A DNA stretch of 46,374 nt from positions 1 through 46,374 of the forward strand of contig JABSRZ010000014.1 of the NCBI GenBank assembly GCA_013214705.1. Reading direction: 5' to 3'. The DNA is from Hyphomicrobiales bacterium (GTDB lineage Bacteria > Pseudomonadota > Alphaproteobacteria > Rhizobiales > OSC116). Below the pieces are notes generated by a model, which was not told the DNA's origin, made no database searches, and saw only the letters and a list, made by a program, of their open reading frames with translations. Shown piece by piece: positions 2,910 through 45,545 of the stretch. Each line of letters starts with the position of its first letter. Position 1 is the stretch's first letter. Both the position numbers and the translations under genes were made by a program.

Positions 2910-3483
2910 CTAATTTTCAATTTCTAGTTTTTGTTTATTGGCATAGGGATACCAAAAGAGTCCCAATTCTCGCTTGGATGCGTAATATTCTACTTTACGT
3001 TCTAGATAATTCATGAATTCAGAAATCGAGAACGCCTTTTACAGCCCGAATGAAACCAATGCGAACACCACTTAAAATTTCTGGCAACGCTGCCCAAAAA
3101 TAGATTTTAACCAATGTATCCCATTGTGAGGCGCCAAAATATTGGGTCATTTCAACCAAAGATGGGTTGATTTGTTTAACACGGGCGCGTGCGTTGAGTA
3201 TAATGATCCTGATGGCGAACGATGATGTTGTGATAACAATTATTTTCAACCAAAACCCAAACAAAACCATCAGAACCGGCACTAAGGCCGTTAAAGGTGC
3301 GCTCAGAAAAACATTAACCCAAGGCAGCAGTAATTCGTCAATCAAACGGTTTTTGCCCATCAAGATGCCAGCAGGTATGCTGATCACAATTGCAAAAAAT
3401 GTTCCCAGCAGAAATGCCTGACCCGTTTCAGTTAAATCACGGATCGAGGCCATTCGGTTGAAGAAGTCTTTGAGCTGGGGCAC
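2910..3483 (-). pseudogene. ABC transporter permease remnant (SsuC/TauC-like), internally deleted
   Basis: The open part (3483 to 3019, 154 aa) shows the central membrane segments of a nitrate/sulfonate/taurine-type permease and the cytoplasmic coupling loop (MTQYFGASQWDTLVKIYFWAALPEILSGVRIGF). The frame then ends abruptly at VKGVLDF. In another frame, from an ATG complementary to 3012-3014 down to 2910, the peptide MNYLERKVEYYASKRELG resembles the basic LERR-type C-terminus of such permeases. The last transmembrane helices are therefore missing and the junction is out of frame. The first helix is also absent at the N-terminus. No ATPase or binding-protein partner lies nearby. The family handles aliphatic sulfur or nitrogen compounds; this copy is almost certainly inactive. 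Confidence 0.75.
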
Positions 3484-3540
3484 TAAATCACTTTATGATT
3501 GGCGCGGACTTTATAGTCAACCAGAGCCAAAGATTAAAAA

Positions 3541-3960
3541 AATGCAGCTCAGAATTGGGCGATTCAGAGACTAAAAGCCGAACTTATACGAGTTGCTGAA
3601 AAGAGTGACATTTTAAAAACGGCAATGGTGTACTTTACCAAAAATGCCAACTGAGCTACGCCTTTATGAAGCAAGCTTAGGTATTATTTGGATTCAAGCA
3701 AAGTGTCGGATCTTCAGAATACATCCGCGTGGTTTCTAGGTTTGGCTTAAAAATCTAGCTAGCAATAAACTAAAAGAAAATAAGCCTTTGGCTGGTTTGT
3801 TAAAACAAGCTTGGTTGAAATTGCTTGTGTTTATGGCTATCGCTATCGCTATCGCAAACTTCATGCCCGGCGCGGCTGCATCACGGCGACAGGGAGTGTT
3901 AAACCTGCGGGCATTTGTAAGGTTTTCGAAAATTGGCAAACGGCTGAGGCAGATGACTTG
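3541..3960 (+). mobile_element. IS3-family transposase remnant (orfA tail plus orfB scrap)
   Basis: Bases 3541-3654 encode AIQRLKAELIRVAEKSDILK followed by TAMVYFTKNAN and a stop. This matches the C-terminal coiled coil of IS3-family OrfA, normally of the form RLRRELxRVxEERDILKKAxAYFA. About 170 bases on, in frame 3811 onward, EIACVYGYRYRYRKLHA recalls the YGYRRLH segment of OrfB, here lengthened by a tandem TATCGC hexamer at 3838-3855. The HTH of OrfA, the DDE core of OrfB and both terminal inverted repeats are not recognisable, and stops separate the pieces. The element is long dead. The OrfA part is fairly secure; the OrfB part and the right boundary are tentative. Confidence 0.6.
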
Positions 3961-4080
3961 CAAGCGCGCAACGGAAATTCGCAAAACGATTCAGAATTAT
4001 CCAGTGATAGCTGCCGTCAAAAACATAATTGTTTTTATTATAGTGAGCTGCTTTTATTTGGGATTGTAGTTTTGATCGAT

Positions 4081-4112
4081 TATCACCGTGGCTTATCCGG
4101 GACACGGTGATA
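4081..4112. repeat. Perfect 10-bp inverted repeat in decayed region
   Basis: TATCACCGTG at 4081-4090 is the exact reverse complement of CACGGTGATA at 4103-4112, with a 12-nt loop. No T-run follows on either strand, so it is not a canonical rho-independent terminator. It sits between the IS3 remnant and the end of the GlcG-like gene. It may be an old terminator or an element-derived repeat. Confidence 0.6.
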
Positions 4113-4211
4113 TTCGAAATAACATTGCGGGTAGGGACTTCTGGTTACAGAATCTGGGAGTGTCTTTGCGAACACAGGTGATCTGGCCATGGCCTTTGTA
4201 TTGTCTCAGGC

Positions 4212-4658
4212 TTAAGTGACTAAACCAACCGCCTCAATGCCGGCGATAGAACATAATTCATCATTATCAGATGTATCACCGGTTACGCCAATGGCGCCAA
4301 TTATATCGCCCTCAGCATCTTTTATAATCAAACCTCCAGCGGCGGGAATAAGACCGTATGGTGTTTGGCCAGCTAGGGCGCTGATAAAATGTGGCCGCTC
4401 AAGCGCTATTTTTTCGATCGCTCTTGAGGGTATGCCCAATGCTAATGCGCCTGCCGCCTTGCCTGTCGCGATTTGAAAACGCGAATTTGAAGCTTTATCT
4501 TGGCGTTGGAAAGCAATTGGGTTTCCGCCAGCGTCTAACACCGATACAGCCAACGGGTTTAAACCCAATTCAGTGCCTTTTTTTAGCGCAGCGGCGATGA
4601 TGTTGTTTGCGGTGTCTAGAGATATTCTTTTCATTTTTTTATCCAATTTGGTTATCAT
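4212..4658 (-). CDS. GlcG/HbpS family protein (DUF336)
   Basis: This 148-aa protein carries the typical DUF336 pattern: ALKKGTELGLNPLAVSVLDAGG near the N-terminus, FQRQDKAS, the central GKAAGALALG and the glycine-rich C-terminal half (IPAAGGLIIKDAEGDIIGAIGVTG). Members include GlcG of the glycolate locus and the heme-binding HbpS; the biochemical role of most is unknown. There is no signal peptide, so it is cytoplasmic. It starts 9 nt after the stop of the class V aminotransferase on the same strand, so the two are very likely cotranscribed and may act on the same small molecule. The start at 4658 could instead be the internal ATG of MKRISLD. Confidence 0.88.
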   Translation of the reverse strand: MITKLDKKMKRISLDTANNIIAAALKKGTELGLNPLAVSVLDAGGNPIAFQRQDKASNSRFQIATGKAAGALALGIPSRAIEKIALERPHFISALAGQTPYGLIPAAGGLIIKDAEGDIIGAIGVTGDTSDNDELCSIAGIEAVGLVT

Positions 4659-4667
4659 AATTAATAG

Positions 4668-37986: not shown

Positions 37987-38061
37987 GCGCCCTTCGTCTA
38001 TCGGTTAGGACGCCAGATTTTCATTCTGGAAAGAGGGGTTCGATTCCCCTAGGGCGTACCA
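37987..38061 (+). tRNA. tRNA-Glu (TTC)
   Basis: All four arms are visible. Acceptor GCGCCCT pairs with AGGGCGT (one G-T), the D-arm has TATCGGTTAGGAC, the anticodon stem CCAGA/TCTGG encloses TTTTCAT with anticodon TTC, and the T-arm is AGGGG-TTCGATT-CCCCT. CCA is encoded at 38059-38061. It directly precedes an integrase gene, so its 3' end is the likely attachment site of the element. Confidence 0.96.
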
Positions 38062-38125: not shown

Positions 38126-38223
38126 GATTAATTCTTTTCCATTTGCAATAATTTCGTTTTTGTGTCAGTTTTTGTAACAGTTTTGTGTTTCAAATTCACT
38201 AAAACTTGCTAAGGAATGTTTCT

Positions 38224-39576
38224 TTGAACAATGAAAAACGTTATTTATTACTGAGAAGTGAAGTGTGGTGGTATCAACGTGATTTGCCAAAAGCACTATA
38301 CAATCAATTGGGCAAAATCCGTCGCCGCGTGAGTTTGAAAACAAAAGACCTAGCGGTGGCAATGATGCGGCGTGATGTTATCGCAAGGGCCGATGATGAA
38401 TATTGGAATGACCTGTTGGGCGGAATAGATCGAAACAGCATTGAAGCCAATTATGACCGCGTAATATTGCGTGCCAGGCATATGAACATAAAGTACAAGC
38501 CTCAGAATGAAATGCTGGCGAGTATTGCACCAGATGAGCTACTTAAACGAGTTGAAATGTTGGAAGGTAATGTTGGTCGATCGAAAATTGCCACAAGCGC
38601 AGTATTAGGTGCTGCAAAGGCACCAAGGCATAAATGCAGTGAAATTATAGATGTATATGTAAAAGACATAATGGCCACGCAAATTAGAAATAAAAGCAAA
38701 GCGCAGCGGCATAGGTGGATTGTCGGTCATAAGCGTATATTGAATAATTTTATAGCTGTTTGCGGTGATGTGGTTTTTACCGAGATAAATCGTGAAAATA
38801 CTCTTAAATACCACGAGTATTTTAAAAACAGGGTATTGAGCACCAATAAGGGCAAGAGGCTCTCTGCGGGAGCTGCAAACCGCGAAATTGGTACGATGCA
38901 GACTATTTTTAAACGTTACCATGAACATTTTGCCATTGAGCAGGTAGGTAACTCATTTTCAAATCTAAAGTTTGCCAAAGAGCGTTCGAAACCACGACCA
39001 CCATTTAGCACTGAATGGATTAGAAATTTACTTGAAAAACCAAATTTAACCAGCGAGATGAATAAAACTGCCCGCGCGATTGTATTTGCTATGGTTGAGA
39101 CAGGGTTGCGTCCGATAGAGATTTGCAACATAAGACCCGAAACTATATTTTTAGATGTAGCTACGCCCTATATATCCATAGAGCCTAGAGATTCATCAAT
39201 TGACGAACCAGAGGGTTATGAGCTCAAGACCGCATCATCTGTACGGAAAATACCGCTGATGGGCGTGTCACTGGCTGCATTTAAAGTATTAAAAAATGGG
39301 CTTGGGCGATATGAAGGCAATAGTGATTTACTATCTGCTGCTGCAAACAAGTTCTTTAGGGGCAATGGTCTGATGGAGAGTGAGGCTCATACTATTTATT
39401 CGCTTAGGCACAGTTTTAAAAAGCGCATGGTAGAAGCTGGTGTCGACGAAGAGTTGCGTAACATATTAATGGGTCATGCTGACGAAAAGCCAGAATATGG
39501 CGATGGCGGATCAATAGAATTTAGAGCTGAAATGTTGGCGCGGATGGTATTGCCTTGTGAAGTTAGCCTTGTTTAG
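38224..39576 (+). CDS. Tyrosine recombinase/integrase
   Basis: I start at TTG 38224 because AAGGAA lies 8 nt upstream; this gives 450 aa. The N-terminal arm-binding part (YLLLRSEVWWYQRDLPKALY) is of the DUF6538-like type, followed by a SAM-like core-binding domain. The catalytic domain shows Arg in ETGLRPIEI, Lys in ELKTASSVRKIPL, the box II stretch IYSLRHSFKKR (Arg present, first His replaced by Tyr, a variant seen in some integrase groups), the LMGHADEK histidine and the nucleophile Tyr in KPEYGDG. It integrates DNA at the neighbouring tRNA-Glu. Coding is intact, so activity is possible. Confidence 0.92.
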   Translation: MNNEKRYLLLRSEVWWYQRDLPKALYNQLGKIRRRVSLKTKDLAVAMMRRDVIARADDEYWNDLLGGIDRNSIEANYDRVILRARHMNIKYKPQNEMLASIAPDELLKRVEMLEGNVGRSKIATSAVLGAAKAPRHKCSEIIDVYVKDIMATQIRNKSKAQRHRWIVGHKRILNNFIAVCGDVVFTEINRENTLKYHEYFKNRVLSTNKGKRLSAGAANREIGTMQTIFKRYHEHFAIEQVGNSFSNLKFAKERSKPRPPFSTEWIRNLLEKPNLTSEMNKTARAIVFAMVETGLRPIEICNIRPETIFLDVATPYISIEPRDSSIDEPEGYELKTASSVRKIPLMGVSLAAFKVLKNGLGRYEGNSDLLSAAANKFFRGNGLMESEAHTIYSLRHSFKKRMVEAGVDEELRNILMGHADEKPEYGDGGSIEFRAEMLARMVLPCEVSLV

Positions 39577-39793: not shown

Positions 39794-39828
39794 AAATAGT
39801 CACTATTTGATGATATGTTGCAATTAGG

Positions 39829-39867
39829 ATACTTGAAGTATATATTCAAATCAATTTATTTGAATAT
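39829..39867. promoter_or_regulatory. Candidate repressor operator plus adjacent 10-bp inverted repeat
   Basis: ATACTTGAAGTAT (39829-39841) is a perfect palindrome whose arms recur next to the repressor gene. Directly after it, ATATTCAAAT (39842-39851) and ATTTGAATAT (39858-39867) form a perfect 10-bp stem with a 6-nt loop. The rest of the gap up to 40192 holds only an unconvincing leftward frame. Confidence 0.5.
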
Positions 39868-40192: not shown

Positions 40193-40897
40193 TCAGACGC
40201 CAAAGAGTTCTCTGGTTATCAGAATTTTGTGCATGGAAATGAGGTTGATTTTGTCTAAAATTAATTCTTCACGCGGGTTGTGCTGGCTCAAAGCGATTGA
40301 TTCCTGGCCGTTGTCATTGGTTTCAATTCTTTCGAATTTTTTAATAATGCATGTCTTCTGGTCTGTTTCGGGTTCGTTAACAACGCAAATTACTGTATCG
40401 CCGGGTCGGCAAGGTATATGTGGTGTTATCACTCTTAAGTCTCCAGCATCATGTGCGGGTGTCATGGTGTCTCCAGTGATATATACGGCGTATAAATCGT
40501 TGTGATTTGAGAGGGCGATTGGCCTAGCTATCTTGCCAATTGGCACCTCGATGATGTATCCGCGATCATCAATGTTGCCCTTAGCATGGTTGAAGATTGG
40601 AATGGACTCCAAATGTTCCGGTGTCAAGGTAATTTGGGGTGGTTTTAGGGGTTCTGCTGGTTTCTTGTTGGAAGCTATGCGGATGGCTTCACTAATTTCG
40701 CCAGTTCTATATATTATGTCACTTACCTGCACGCCAAGAATTTCTGACAGTTTCAAAATATTCTGAACAGTTGGGTTTTGTCTGTCTTTTTCCCAAGATG
40801 TGACCGCGCCTTTGGTTAAGTTGAGCATTTCCGCGACCTGCAATTGTGTAAGGTTACGCGCCAATCTGTATTTTTTAATTTGTGTTCCAAGGGTCAT
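40193..40897 (-). CDS. CI/LexA-like phage repressor (XRE HTH plus S24 peptidase-like domain)
   Basis: The 234-aa protein has an N-terminal HTH of the XRE type (LTQLQVAEMLNLTKGAVTSWE) and a linker. A C-terminal S24 domain follows: DLYAVYITGDTMTPAHDAGDL and RPGDTVICVV, with a lysine in CIIKKFERI. In S24 repressors the nucleophile is the Ser of GDSM; here it is Thr (GDTM), so self-cleavage may be weak or lost. It is transcribed away from the replication genes, the usual control layout of temperate phages and satellites. TAAGAA lies upstream of the ATG. Confidence 0.9.
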   Translation of the reverse strand: MTLGTQIKKYRLARNLTQLQVAEMLNLTKGAVTSWEKDRQNPTVQNILKLSEILGVQVSDIIYRTGEISEAIRIASNKKPAEPLKPPQITLTPEHLESIPIFNHAKGNIDDRGYIIEVPIGKIARPIALSNHNDLYAVYITGDTMTPAHDAGDLRVITPHIPCRPGDTVICVVNEPETDQKTCIIKKFERIETNDNGQESIALSQHNPREELILDKINLISMHKILITRELFGV

Positions 40898-40915: not shown

Positions 40916-40980
40916 TTGCTAAAGAATACTTCAATATAATAAGTATCCTTGTATTGACATTCAATATATATCAAGTATCC
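40916..40980. promoter_or_regulatory. Repressor operator cluster and divergent promoters
   Basis: ATACTT (40926-40931) and AAGTAT (40941-40946) form an inverted pair with 9-nt spacing, and AAGTATCC recurs at 40941 and 40973. On the minus strand TTGAAT, 17 bp and TATTAT can serve as the repressor promoter and overlap the pair. TTGACA at 40954-40959 could be the -35 of a rightward promoter. Such overlap suggests autoregulation. Confidence 0.6.
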
Positions 40981-41064: not shown

Positions 41065-41160
41065 ATGACAGATGATCGATATAACATATCCAAGCAAAAT
41101 CCATTTTGTAAAATGGTGAGGCAGTTCTATCACATTGGGCGGGTGAGGGCAATGGTATGA
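41065..41160 (+). CDS. Possible 31-aa early peptide
   Basis: The frame ATG 41065 to TGA 41158-41160 encodes MTDDRYNISKQNPFCKMVRQ and 11 more residues. It lies where a Cro- or CII-like early gene would be expected, in the 406-nt gap between the repressor and the replication gene. No ribosome site or known domain is visible, and it may be a fragment or chance. Nothing else is seen in 41161-41303. Confidence 0.2.
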   Translation: MTDDRYNISKQNPFCKMVRQFYHIGRVRAMV

Positions 41161-41303
41161 CCTGGCCATGATGTAGCGCCCAAAACAAAGCGAAATATAT
41201 GAATGTTTAGGCTGATACCTGATGGGTATTAGCGAGTTTTGAAGTGCTGTTTTTGCGGCATGGATTTTCATTGCCAAAATTTGGTAATTTAAGGATAAAT
41301 AAT

Positions 41304-42101
41304 ATGAGTGTTAAATACTTGAATTGGGCGTTTTCTTTGCTCGATTTTGAACCAATTCAAAAAGTGATATTGTTATCGCTTGCTGATAATAGCGACGATG
41401 ATGGAGTTAGTTTCCCATCAATACGTCAAGTATGTGCCAGAACCGGCATAAAGAGCCGTACGACAGTAATCTAGCATATCAAATCTATGTGTGATGTAGG
41501 TTTGATAACCATATCAGAACGCATTCGATACAACGGTTCACAATCATCCAATGAATATAAATTAAATATTGAATTTGAAAGTGGGTTTACCCCCTGTTCA
41601 ATAAATGCACAGAGGTGTTCAGCAATTGCACAGTCTGATGTAACAGATGTACAGGGGGCTGTGCAGAAGAGTGAACGGGGGAGTGTACAGCAGACTGAAC
41701 AGCTAGGTGTACAGCTAAATGAACACCAAGAACCATCACTAGAACCATCATTTAAACCATTATATGAACCACCACTGCAAAAAGCCAAGAAAACTAGGTT
41801 TGTAGCCCCAACGATTGATGAATGCGAAACTTTCTTTTTTGATGAGAAGCATATTACCGATCAAACCATGCCAAGTCAGTTTTGGGATTATTACCAGTCA
41901 AACGGTTGGATAGTAGGGCGAACCAAAATGAAAGATTGGCGAGCCGCTGCCAATGGCTGGGTTGGTAGGCAAAAGAAATACGAACTTAGCAACCGAAACC
42001 AACTTCAAAAACCAAAACCACTAATTCAACAAATGGCAGATAAATTACGTGCTGCAGAACAAACAAATTCAGAAATGATGGAGATCAGCTATGACAAATA
42101 A
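41304..42101 (+). pseudogene. Phage-type replication initiation protein, interrupted by in-frame TAG
   Basis: The ATG 41304 follows AAGGATAAATA. The first part, MSVKYLNWAFSLLDFEPIQK onward, has SFPSIRQVCARTGIKSRTTV, the start of a winged HTH as in phage replication (O-like) proteins. A TAG at 41472-41474 interrupts it exactly within the helix that continues HIKSMCDVGLITISERIRYN in the same frame (an internal ATG at 41487 follows). After a repetitive Gln/Ser/Val-rich linker (SDVTDVQGAVQKSERGSVQQ), the C-terminal domain FWDYYQSNGWIVGRTKMKDWRAAANGW is typical of these initiators. Without the stop the product would be 265 aa. The last 11 nt overlap the next gene. It may be a true pseudogene, a suppressed amber or a sequence error. 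Confidence 0.75.
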
Positions 42102-43017
42102 CTTATCAATTATTGAGAAAAATATCCCCAATTGGGTCGGCCGATATGAGGGTGATTGGCAAAGATTGCTGCAAATACCAACTGGTGAATTGCCAGAAAT
42201 GAGCGAAGTGGAGGTCACGATCGCCAACTTAACTGCTGATGAGAAATGCACTTTAAAGCAGGCGGTTCGGTTGTCTGAACAATTATCATTTCTGTCAACA
42301 TGGCCTAACGATAAGCGGCCTATTCGTTATTCTCCTACCGAAATAATTGCCAAATCGTTTTTCGAACACCCTGTTTGGCTTGGTAAAAAAGCGTTTATAA
42401 GCATGCTTTCAACGTCAAAGTGGTTACCTGCGCCAGTTGAAATTAGTGATGAACAGGCGGCGGTTTATAGCCATGATGGCGTGGCTATTTCACGCTCCAC
42501 GAATTTTAAAATATTTCGAAGACGGATAGATAAAAGCAAGCGTTCAGATTGCAGAATTAAGAAAGATGTTGATGCAAATATTTCATTCAGACAAACGGTA
42601 CTAATTGATTTTACGGTCAATAAAATAATTGAATTCAAGGGCAGAACTGCGGAATGCCATAGAAAGGTTGATGATCTGGATTATATAAAATTAAACAATG
42701 AAAGCCGAAAGAATGCGGAACGATTGGCCAACAAGAAAATCGACCCAGAACCTAACCATTGGCCAAAAGTAGATGAATATTTATCTGCCAGTAATATTAC
42801 CCAAATATGCAAAATGCTTGGCCTTAGTAATTGGTTTGAGTGCTTGGCTGACTATACCGTTTGGACAATGTTGCATTATGATCTTGGTTATTGCATTGGC
42901 GATATTGATAAAACTATTTGCATGAGTGGGTTTAACCAATTGACGGCAACGTTTGAAGCCGCAAAAGATCAAACGGGTACAAACTTTGAAATAATGGGAA
43001 TCAGCTATGACAAATAA
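42091..43017 (+). CDS. Element protein of unknown function, paralog A
   Basis: This 308-aa protein has no domain I can name. It is clearly paralogous to the next gene over its whole length. Shared blocks are MTNNL, VEKNIP or IEKNIP, WQR, KQAV, EQLS, SKWLPAPVEISDE, NHWPxVDEYLA, GLxNWFExLADY and ICMSGF. The SKWLPAPVEI block after a short helical segment recalls proteins encoded beside phage initiators, possibly helicase-loader-like, but this is inference. There are no membrane segments. It overlaps the replication gene by 11 nt and the next paralog by 11 nt, with GGAG before its ATG, indicating translational coupling. Confidence 0.8.
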   Translation: MTNNLSIIEKNIPNWVGRYEGDWQRLLQIPTGELPEMSEVEVTIANLTADEKCTLKQAVRLSEQLSFLSTWPNDKRPIRYSPTEIIAKSFFEHPVWLGKKAFISMLSTSKWLPAPVEISDEQAAVYSHDGVAISRSTNFKIFRRRIDKSKRSDCRIKKDVDANISFRQTVLIDFTVNKIIEFKGRTAECHRKVDDLDYIKLNNESRKNAERLANKKIDPEPNHWPKVDEYLSASNITQICKMLGLSNWFECLADYTVWTMLHYDLGYCIGDIDKTICMSGFNQLTATFEAAKDQTGTNFEIMGISYDK

Positions 43018-43897
43018 TTTAATAATCGTTGAGAAAAATATTCCCGATTGGCTTGCCCGATATGATGGTGGCTGGCAACGGATAGTAAATATGCCGATTA
43101 AAGAAATACCGCCAAAGGCTCAAATTGTCTCGACTCTGGAATATTTAACAAGCGATCCAAAGTGTGATCAAAAACAAGCCGTGTTGTTATTTGAGCAATT
43201 ATCAGTTTTGTCAACTGGCGCAAATGATAGGCGCATGGACAGTTATTTAATTACTGAAATAGTAATCAAGTGCTTTATGGATTTTCCGGATTGGGTTGGC
43301 AAAATAGCAGTCGTTAATTTGGCGTTCAAATCAAAATGGTTGCCAGCTCCAGTGGAGATCAGTGATGAGCTGGAGGCTGTTTATAGGTCCGTTAGCGAAG
43401 CTATATCGTGTCTTGAAAATCTTGAAAAGCGAAGAGAGCGGCATGACAAAGAAACAATATCTAGCAACGGATTTAAGTCTGATAAGTATGCCAAAAACTC
43501 ATTTAACCAAACGGTGCGATTAAACTTTAAGGTCAATCAAAATGTCTTTTTCAAAGTCAGAGAAACGAACTTTTGCAGGTCAGTTATCGACCTAGACTAC
43601 AAGAAGCCTATCATCGAAAGCAGAGAGAAAGCTGAACAGATAGCAAACAGGCCAATTGACCCCAAGAAAAATCATTGGCCGCAGGTAGATGAGTATTTGG
43701 CAACCAGTAAGATTACTAAAAGGTGCAAACGCCTTGGTTTGTACAACTGGTTTGAATCACTTGCTGATTATGCCGTATGGAGCATGTTACGCTGTGAAGA
43801 TGGTTACTTCACTGTTGATGCAGATAAAGTTATTTGTATGAGCGGTTTTGACAAGCTGATGGACGCATTTGAAACTGAGCATGTTGAGGTGGCATAG
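43007..43897 (+). CDS. Element protein of unknown function, paralog B
   Basis: This 296-aa protein is homologous to the preceding gene product across its full length, roughly half identical by eye, with the least similarity in the charged middle (residues about 130-200). C-terminal residues ICMSGFDKLMDAFE match the paralog, but the protein ends EHVEVA and lacks the ISYDK tail. Its ATG overlaps the stop of paralog A by 11 nt in a sequence nearly identical to the junction before paralog A, so the pair arose by tandem duplication. It is the last clear gene of the element. Function unknown. Confidence 0.8.
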   Translation: MTNNLIIVEKNIPDWLARYDGGWQRIVNMPIKEIPPKAQIVSTLEYLTSDPKCDQKQAVLLFEQLSVLSTGANDRRMDSYLITEIVIKCFMDFPDWVGKIAVVNLAFKSKWLPAPVEISDELEAVYRSVSEAISCLENLEKRRERHDKETISSNGFKSDKYAKNSFNQTVRLNFKVNQNVFFKVRETNFCRSVIDLDYKKPIIESREKAEQIANRPIDPKKNHWPQVDEYLATSKITKRCKRLGLYNWFESLADYAVWSMLRCEDGYFTVDADKVICMSGFDKLMDAFETEHVEVA

Positions 43898-44491
43898 GCT
43901 TGGTAATGAACAGATGCGAAAAACTTGATAAAGCAGCTGAATGCAGAACAGAAACCGCGGGTTGGCATACACTGCCAGCCTGCTTATTAGATTTTGGGTT
44001 GTTTAACGACTGAAAAGACATCAGAAAATCTGGCACTGCTCTCCCCATTTACGCATTGCCAATGGAACTTTGCATGAAATATGATGAAGGGTGGGCGGGG
44101 GTAAAACCATATTCGCCCTTTCTAACTAGACCGTTGGGGTAATCGAAATATTATCAGAAACGGGAAAATATAAATTAAAACCCCATTTGAACAATAACAA
44201 AATAAATTGGGAATGATTAGAAATACAGGATGCAATCTTTCCAGCGTTGAAAGTGAAAAACTAGTAAGCCGAATTGCTACAGCAAACAATACGAGTTTGG
44301 TATGTTGCCCGGAACTAAGCGAATTCACTTCCGTTCGGCTGATTCAGAAAAAATCACACAGCTTTTGCAAACAGCCCAGTCCACACTTTTATTCACAAAA
44401 AGTGAACAAAATATAGTTCTGAATAATTGTGTTCGATTATGCAACAACCGGTTTCTATTCATTTTTTAGATATGCTAGATAAGCATTAGTT
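43898..44491. other. Gene-poor stretch at the right end of the element
   Basis: No convincing gene is present. A 35-codon frame (43906-44013) and a 69-codon frame at 44207 lack ribosome sites and domain features. GGGTGGGCGGGGGT near 44090 is a short G-rich patch. The element's right boundary probably lies here, but I could not find a copy of the tRNA-Glu 3' end by eye. Confidence 0.5.
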
Positions 44492-45545
44492 ATGTATTAT
44501 GTAATTATTTTTTCTAGTAATTACGTAGAGTATCCAGTGTTTCCTATAATCCTATCATTCCTATTTACTTTAATATTTATAATCTGCATGATACCGGTTG
44601 ACAACAGATTTGGCTTCATGGATGCGCCGAACCATCGAAAAACCCATGTTGGCGCAATTCCGATAGTAGGGGGGTAGCCATATATGTCATTGCATTAGGT
44701 TACCTATTGTTATTACATAACGTTTCTGTGCTCACGTTAAGTTATATTGCTGGTGGGAGCGCTTTGTTTTTTGTGGGCATTCTGGACGACATGCTGGATA
44801 TTAGAGTGAGATACAGACTGATAATTCAAATGATATCTGCTCTTATAATCATATTTTGGGGTGTTTATATTTTGATTATATTGGCTCAATAGCCACAGTC
44901 GGTGATATCTATTTGGGATATATTGGAATTATTTTTACCGTGTATTTCTTCATGGCAAATATAAATTCATTAAATATGGTGGACGGTATAGATGGTTTGC
45001 TAGGAGCACTATCATTGGTTTCGCTGATAACACTGGCCATTTTTCTGTCGATATCAGATTCATCATTTGCATCTGTCCCAATTGTAATATCCGCTGCTTT
45101 AACAAGCTACCTAATTTTCAATTTTAAAATAGCATCGTTTATTCCAAAAATATTTATGGGCGATGCTGGTGCAATGCTATTGGGGTTTACAGTAAGTTGG
45201 TTAATAATTATTTCAGTTGTTATTGAAGAAGTCTTTAGACTAGTATCAATATTATATATTATTGCATTGCCTTTTATTGATATGATATTTACGATATTCA
45301 ATCGTATTGGAAAAGGGCAATCTCCTATCCGCCCGCAAAGAGATCATATCCATCATAGGTTGATGAATAGAGGTTTTTCTACCTCTCAAACCGTTGGAAT
45401 CACAACTTTGTTGGCCCTAATTATCGCAACTATTGGCTTTCTAGGAGAACTCTCCAATATAAATGATTTAAACATGTTATTGATGTTTTTATTTATTATG
45501 ATTTGTTTTACCTATTATTTTATTCACACTTCAAAATACAAATAA
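44492..45545 (+). pseudogene. WecA/MraY-family undecaprenyl-phosphate sugar-phosphate transferase, two frameshifts
   Basis: Three consecutive frames together encode one protein of about 350 aa. The first has FMDAPNHRKTHVGAIPIVGG, the second FVGILDDMLDIRVRYRLIIQM (the DDxxD metal motif) and the third NSLNMVDGIDGLLG, FMGDAGAMLLGF and SPIRPQRDHIHHRLMNRGFS. All are WecA-family hallmarks, with about ten membrane helices. The frame is lost at a G6 run (44669-44674) where G7 would restore it, and at a T4 run (44870-44873) where T5 would. The enzyme would load a sugar-1-phosphate onto the lipid carrier to start surface polysaccharide synthesis, in keeping with the neighbouring manC. It may be a pseudogene or carry sequencing errors. 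Confidence 0.85.

Follow-up and report, generated by a model that had tools for sequence, protein, structure and literature searches.

The replication locus described here is likely to have arisen by an old tandem duplication of the second gene of a lambda-like module, of which a sister module with a single unit is preserved elsewhere in the same genome. The window analysed is a whole contig (C6, 46,374 bases) of the alphaproteobacterial genome G000, and two further genomes mentioned below, G088 and G122, belong to the same genus. Three genes on the + strand make up the locus: rep (41304-42101), which codes for a lambda-O-like initiator, paralog A (42091-43017, 308 aa), whose codons 1-289 are homologous to B and whose remainder carries a rep-derived tail, and paralog B (43007-43897, 296 aa). 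The observations that carry this account are a repeat at the gene junctions, the transfer of the rep tail onto A, the presence or absence of one 916-nt unit and the relative ages of the copies. Taken by itself, the tandem duplication is a history of which we are nearly certain.

The first-pass annotation had described the junctions rep/A and A/B as nearly identical, and this was borne out when they were returned by a repeat finder as a 100-nt direct repeat, 81% identical and spaced by 916 nt. The first copy (42063-42162, +) spans the rep tail and the start of A, and the second (42979-43078, +) the rep-derived tail of A and the start of B. Within each copy, stop and start codons overlap in the same 11 nt, ATGACAAATAA (42091-42101 and 43007-43017, both +), an 11-mer that occurs in the window, both strands searched, at these two places and nowhere else, and once, on the + strand, in the stretch L009 of a second contig of the same genome, C8. 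Aligning the two junctions, a check proposed beforehand, gave agreement at 34 of 46 positions (from -35 to +11), above any other place in the window, as the runner-up on the + strand reached 24 of 46 and the best on the - strand 26 of 46. The ribosome-binding site noted earlier is indeed present, with the correction that the letters GGAG belong to rep/A and GGGA to A/B, the latter being also found at the C8 junction. The proteins had been said to have diverged to roughly half identity, and A and B are in fact 53% identical (152/289 residues, gap-free), with 61.7% identity at the DNA level over codons 1-289.

A key element of the earlier proposal was that the duplicated unit (916 nt) took along the 3' tail of rep, which became the C-terminus of A, and this holds on the basis of the polarity of the ends. 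Homology between A and B stops at codon 289, beyond which B has at most 7 residues and A has 19, encoded at 42958-43017 (+). The last twelve residues of A, TNFEIMGISYDK, match the rep tail TNSEMM(E/G)ISYDK. In local DNA alignments, the A tail scored 32 against the C6 rep and 40 against the C8 rep, compared with a maximum of 26 among random 60-mers (8,000 from the + strand and 8,000 from the - strand); the corresponding protein scores were 44 and 52, whereas 20,000 random draws outside the locus (41200-44300 excluded) reached no more than 36. Removal of the last 13 nt lowered the score against the C8 rep to 16, under the best null score of 24, so that rep-derived sequence is shown for about 28 nt and no more, with homology to the rep tail starting at approximately 42979. 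The ISYDK end is found only in A, while B, the C8 copy and the G088 and G122 homologs have short ends of their own. Since all four share this short, B-type end, the native end is that of B, and the rep tail was passed to A.

The search for copy-number variants, also suggested at the outset, yielded a one-copy module in the same genome. Contig C8 encodes a third family member, which shares 83% identity with B and 52% with A, so that A stands at about 52% identity from both other copies and has no close relative within the genome. In locus L009, an uninterrupted rep (2988-3785) is followed by a single paralog (3775-4665) with the same 11-nt overlap. Global alignment of the modules (window 41155-44238 against L009 2839-5004) showed them to be colinear, with 1869 of 2163 aligned positions identical (86%); among the gaps, one measures exactly 916 nt (window 42078-42993, +; its end points can slide inside the junction repeat) and the seven others 1-2 nt. 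Left of ATGG, the C8 junction resembles the rep tail of C6, and right of it the C6 A/B junction. Beyond the module, L009 gave no match to the window from 38001 on, and the surroundings of the module differ between C6 and C8, from which it follows that the replication module is common to different elements. Homologs of A and B placed separately behind unrelated genes would have spoken against the duplication; as far as this search could be run, the only other full-length homolog, that of C8, has the same rep upstream and the same overlap.

The relative ages of these events were estimated from synonymous divergence. The dS between A and B was 2.5 by maximum likelihood (ML) and undefined by NG86, that is, saturated, and that between A and the C8 copy was 2.4 (ML) or 4.5 (NG86), whereas B and the C8 copy differ by only 0.19-0.26, a range close to that of the two rep genes (0.20-0.23). 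The duplication is, thus, far older than the split between C6 and C8, and although the tandem duplication recognized earlier is real, it is not private to the C6 element. The A-B dN/dS of about 0.14 (ML, with saturated dS) suggests that both copies have long been under purifying selection. There was no sign of gene conversion at the junctions since C6 and C8 separated, A being about equally near to the C8 and B starts. In codons 5-25, A and B use the same codon in 9 of 12 cases, against 70 of 142 in total (permutation P 0.057), and A and the C8 copy in 8 of 12 (P 0.15), so that codon agreement close to the junction exceeds that elsewhere only marginally.

These observations could be integrated in the following scheme. 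The second gene of an O-like module would have been doubled in tandem long ago, one breakpoint falling in the last codons of rep and the other around codon 289 of the duplicated gene. Copy A, lying upstream, would thereby have lost its own last residues and gained a rep tail, together with the ribosome-binding site and the next start; because the gained tail holds both signals, the two junctions share the same 11-nt overlap, across which ribosomes may couple. The copies would then have diverged to their present 53% identity under purifying selection. As the junctions are direct repeats, recombination between them could remove exactly one unit, and the C8 module would represent such a state. 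That the one-unit state reflects loss of A rather than gain in C6 is the simplest history, requiring fewer steps, and it is the one we lean towards. Full-length members are found in one genome only, so a tree cannot separate loss from gain, and the tree of the C-terminal part gave no resolved fork among A, B and B8, with an overly long branch for the C44 sequence described below.

Two other origins were considered for the pattern. In one, translation signals and overlap would by themselves force the same letters upon both junctions. Part of the likeness does consist of a ribosome site and a two-frame overlap, and the tail match loses significance without its last 13 nt, but 28 nt before and 72 nt after the start match at 81%, in register with full-length protein homology, the C8 junction is closely similar, and convergence does not predict the presence or absence of exactly 916 nt, which makes it hardly credible. 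In the other, the A unit entered C6 by homologous recombination from an element carrying a tandem pair, and C8 retains the older single-copy state. The junction repeat could act as the recombination site, A lacks a close relative in the genome (about 52% identity to both other copies), and the different settings of the module on C6 and C8 indicate that it moves between elements. However, such an import still requires an old tandem duplication elsewhere, and a donor pair was not found in 397 genomes of the order, 385 of the class, phages, plasmids or viral contigs. We therefore hold import to be unlikely, though clearly less so than convergence, and retain the loss of A from an ancestral tandem pair as the preferred reading.

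The module itself is identified by its first gene. The window rep, 89% identical in DNA to the C8 rep, has its frame broken by an in-frame TAG (41472-41474), at which the C8 copy has AAA, and the window initiator gene is probably either broken or restarting at the ATG at 41487. The uninterrupted C8 rep matched phrog_1032 (replication initiation protein, 1.9e-22), phrog_391 (O-like, 5.6e-18) and phrog_8540 (9.8e-16) in the PHROG scan, and HTH_36 (1.5e-7) in Pfam; judged by these family matches of its C8 ortholog, rep is a lambda-type O initiator. From the window rep, the fragment after the TAG was scanned, which matched phrog_15768 (function not named, 7.9e-18) and nothing in Pfam. Inside the gene, at 41594-41714, lie five exact copies of TGWACAG, one of them on the - strand, which are candidate iterons of a possible lambda-type origin. 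Lambdoid phages carry their origin, iterons included, midway along gene O, with P located in the same replication region (PMC7466680). The C6 cluster of five copies in 121 bp has a counterpart on C8 with six in 121 bp (L009 3278-3398), the last three copies being 12 bp apart in both, while no 125-bp stretch in 300 Markov shuffles of L009 held more than 4 copies of this motif, which had been picked by eye beforehand. The total is 14 in the window, a number reached by 4 of 100 shuffles, and 11 in the C8 stretch, reached by 0 of 200; as the window total is only mildly high, the argument for iterons relies on the clustering and on C8. Among the spaced copies, the first T occupies the third position of different codons (AGT, ACT, GGT), which hints at a constraint on the DNA, as a lambda-type origin might impose.

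Upstream of this module, a CI/LexA-like repressor gene (HTH_3 plus peptidase S24; 40193-40897, -) diverges from rep, and a tyrosine integrase gene (38206-39576, +) adjoins a tRNA-Glu (37987-38061). By its gene content, the locus is best taken as a lambda-like replication module in a small mobile element with integrase and repressor. The region from 37987 to about 44300 comprises the tRNA-Glu, integrase, repressor, rep, A and B, with no recognised structural genes, and resembles a small satellite or the remnant of a prophage; downstream on the contig, a second tRNA-Glu end was not detected at the thresholds used. The window has only three exact sites of AAGTATCC (39827-39834, 40941-40948 and 40973-40980), and these lie on either side of the repressor gene, two of them next to a divergent promoter-like pair and one downstream of the gene. 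They are possible operators, a candidate role to be read together with the fact that 8 of 100 shuffles reach three sites. Further downstream, at 44492-45545, one gene is spread over three ORFs, apparently through frameshifts or stops; we take it to be membrane glycosyltransferase-like.

Since rep is lambda-O-like and contains candidate iterons in its frame, A and B occupy, by gene order, the slot of lambda P, directly behind O and with the 11-nt overlap. In this place, A and B might cooperate with the initiator to recruit the helicase. That they load it is a conjecture drawn from gene order, and we give a loader-slot function slightly less than an even chance. Neither A nor B matched any family above threshold in Pfam, NCBIfam or PHROGs; the sole PHROG match of A was phrog_12054 (no function given; 0.098), and B had none at E ≤1. 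The C8 copy gave a sub-threshold Pfam match to Alba (E 0.0084, 16.3 bits against a cut-off of 25) and none in PHROGs at E ≤5. No similarity of A or B to P (phrog_109) emerged from the PHROG scan, nor one above controls from hhalign. The N-terminal halves of A, B and the C8 copy matched no PHROG at E ≤10, whereas the P protein of phage GF-2, used as a control, matched phrog_109 at 7.1e-78, and in hhalign the N-terminal half aligned with P and loader-like proteins no better than with shuffled and unrelated controls. The G39P-like family PF11417 was matched neither by A or B (Pfam, E ≤1) nor by the C8 copy (E ≤5), and a six-frame search for it found nothing in 190 genomes, G000 included, with the 14 control genomes equally silent. 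A resemblance by eye between the N-terminal half and a short ORF behind an O-like initiator in genome G142 (L039) was rejected as evidence. This ORF matched phrog_2289, 'helicase loader', at only E 0.18, and its hhalign score (12.8) equalled that of its own shuffle (12.8), with unrelated window proteins reaching up to 18.0; the search for relatives from which to build a profile gave none of use, namely one contig at 100% and, among 297 genomes, the ORF itself. Structure prediction yielded a B model with a mean pLDDT of 45 and a model of the C-terminal part with 59 (both from 4 rows), and Foldseek returned no fold match for the latter (best E 3.3 in the PDB and 1.8 among viral models). Against PDB sequence profiles, query A2 retrieved HAUS8 alone, at E 0.76, and query A3 nothing.

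The C-terminal half of A and B recurs at the C-terminus of O-like initiators in G088 and G122 (36-43% identity, depending on the query). In some elements, then, this domain belongs to the initiator itself, and in others it sits in the following gene, which suggests that the C-terminal domain of A and B and the initiator act in one shared process. In G000 itself, a phage-like region on contig C44 (L031, 6452-7255) codes for an initiator (phrog_11233, 1.1e-23) whose end weakly matches the C-terminal part of A and B (E 9.5e-4). It could be speculated that A and B represent a new two-domain replication family, with an exchangeable C-terminal module recruiting helicase or primosome, with A modulating B and with the repeat switching between one- and two-copy states. 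This would join a C-terminal module placed either on the initiator, as in the phage-like elements of the same genus, or on a separate, duplicated partner with a retained, faster-changing A; as a whole, we consider it a long shot.

The gene that follows comparable initiators varies. Among 267 phage records with a match to a similar initiator, the next gene was examined in five, and it is annotated as replication protein P in two, GF-2 (with a phrog_109 match) and Psychrobacter phage Y8A (with no PHROG match); in the other three, it is annotated as a coil containing protein (H1), a small hypothetical protein (H5) and a phosphoadenosine phosphosulfate reductase (H32). Of nine viral loci, the next ORF was scanned in two, and it matched a DnaC-like loader in L017 and phrog_2113 (function not named; 0.019) in L023. 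For nine other genomes of the order with an initiator match, the listing covered + strand ORFs, and six of the loci have their match on the - strand. A loader thus follows comparable initiators in only some cases.

The family is also rare. A search with B matched 3 of the 397 genomes examined from the order, and one with A matched 3 of 6 from the genus; an alignment of A, B and the C8 copy matched 3 of 6 genomes from the family and 1 of 385 from the class. Full-length members were found in G000 only. B matched none of 50,697 phage records and 72,556 plasmid records, and pattern scans of IMG/VR with B, A3 and A2 gave no match, in collections that may omit near relatives of the genome from which the window comes. 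Against the collection of genome contigs, B alone found no further full-length homolog, and a profile scan gave only two C-terminal homologs. No paper on such a junction pattern was found among the openings of abstracts, and a passage of PMC9426424 contained nothing on these genomes.

The retained coupling had been taken to suggest selection for a fixed ratio or a hetero-oligomer, a notion that finds no support in the comparison with C8, where A is missing and one copy follows rep with the same overlap. Both frames are open, overlapping genes are commonly coupled in translation, and the A-B dN/dS of about 0.14 (ML), with its saturated dS, implies that both were long kept as proteins. On the other hand, the uninterrupted C8 rep is accompanied by a B-type copy alone, and, if the C8 module works at all, it would do so with that single copy. 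Moreover, the overlap was inherited with the duplicated DNA, and so provides no independent evidence of selection. The junction codons are only marginally more alike (P 0.057), and the TAG in the window rep interrupts coupling from the rep start, unless translation restarts at the ATG at 41487. An obligate hetero-oligomer, or products in a fixed ratio, accordingly appear improbable. A different possibility is that the element in the window is a remnant in decay, in which A is a redundant, functionless copy. The in-frame stop in rep would fit, as would the lack of a second tRNA-Glu end (attR) downstream on the contig at the thresholds used. Of the 44 C-terminal columns in which the other four homologs all agree, A has also changed 9, and this marks it as the less conserved copy, since the same count gives 2 of 37 for B and likewise for the C8 copy, 3 of 38 in G088 and 6 of 41 in G122. 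However, its frame remains open over 308 codons after saturating synonymous divergence, and it keeps 35 of those 44 columns (35/37 in B and the C8 copy, 35/38 in G088, 35/41 in G122). Decay with a functionless A is therefore somewhat unlikely, if easier to accept than an obligate partnership, and the preferred reading remains an ancient tandem pair from which C8 has lost one unit.

The evolutionary mechanism is ordinary: a gene was duplicated in tandem, with one breakpoint falling in its neighbour, and a one-unit state arose later. Nevertheless, the locus offers a clean natural record of how a gene within an operon doubles without breaking translation, since the duplicated unit brings along the tail of the preceding gene, its ribosome site and the overlap, and it does so with the two-unit (C6) and one-unit (C8) states in one genome. 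The protein family of A and B is nearly unknown and of interest, and it points to an unnamed domain common to phage-type initiators and to a separate gene behind such an initiator.

Among known systems, the closest is the O-P module of phage lambda, which likewise has an O-like initiator gene of the HTH type, a second gene directly behind and overlapping, and a CI-type repressor diverging upstream; the iteron-like repeats midway along the rep frame may be a further point in common. It differs in that here the second gene occurs in two copies and does not recognisably resemble P, and in that no structural gene was recognised among the ORFs from the integrase to B. The O-like initiators of G088 and G122 share the C-terminal half of A and B and the native B-type tail, but in them this half is fused to the DNA-binding part of the initiator, and the N-terminal half of A and B is absent. 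Finally, in Stx phages, duplication of iterons within the O genes lengthens the replication protein (PMC7466680); both cases involve a change in copy number within a lambda-type replication region and a lengthened replication protein, but what is duplicated there is the iterons, and here it is the whole neighbouring gene.
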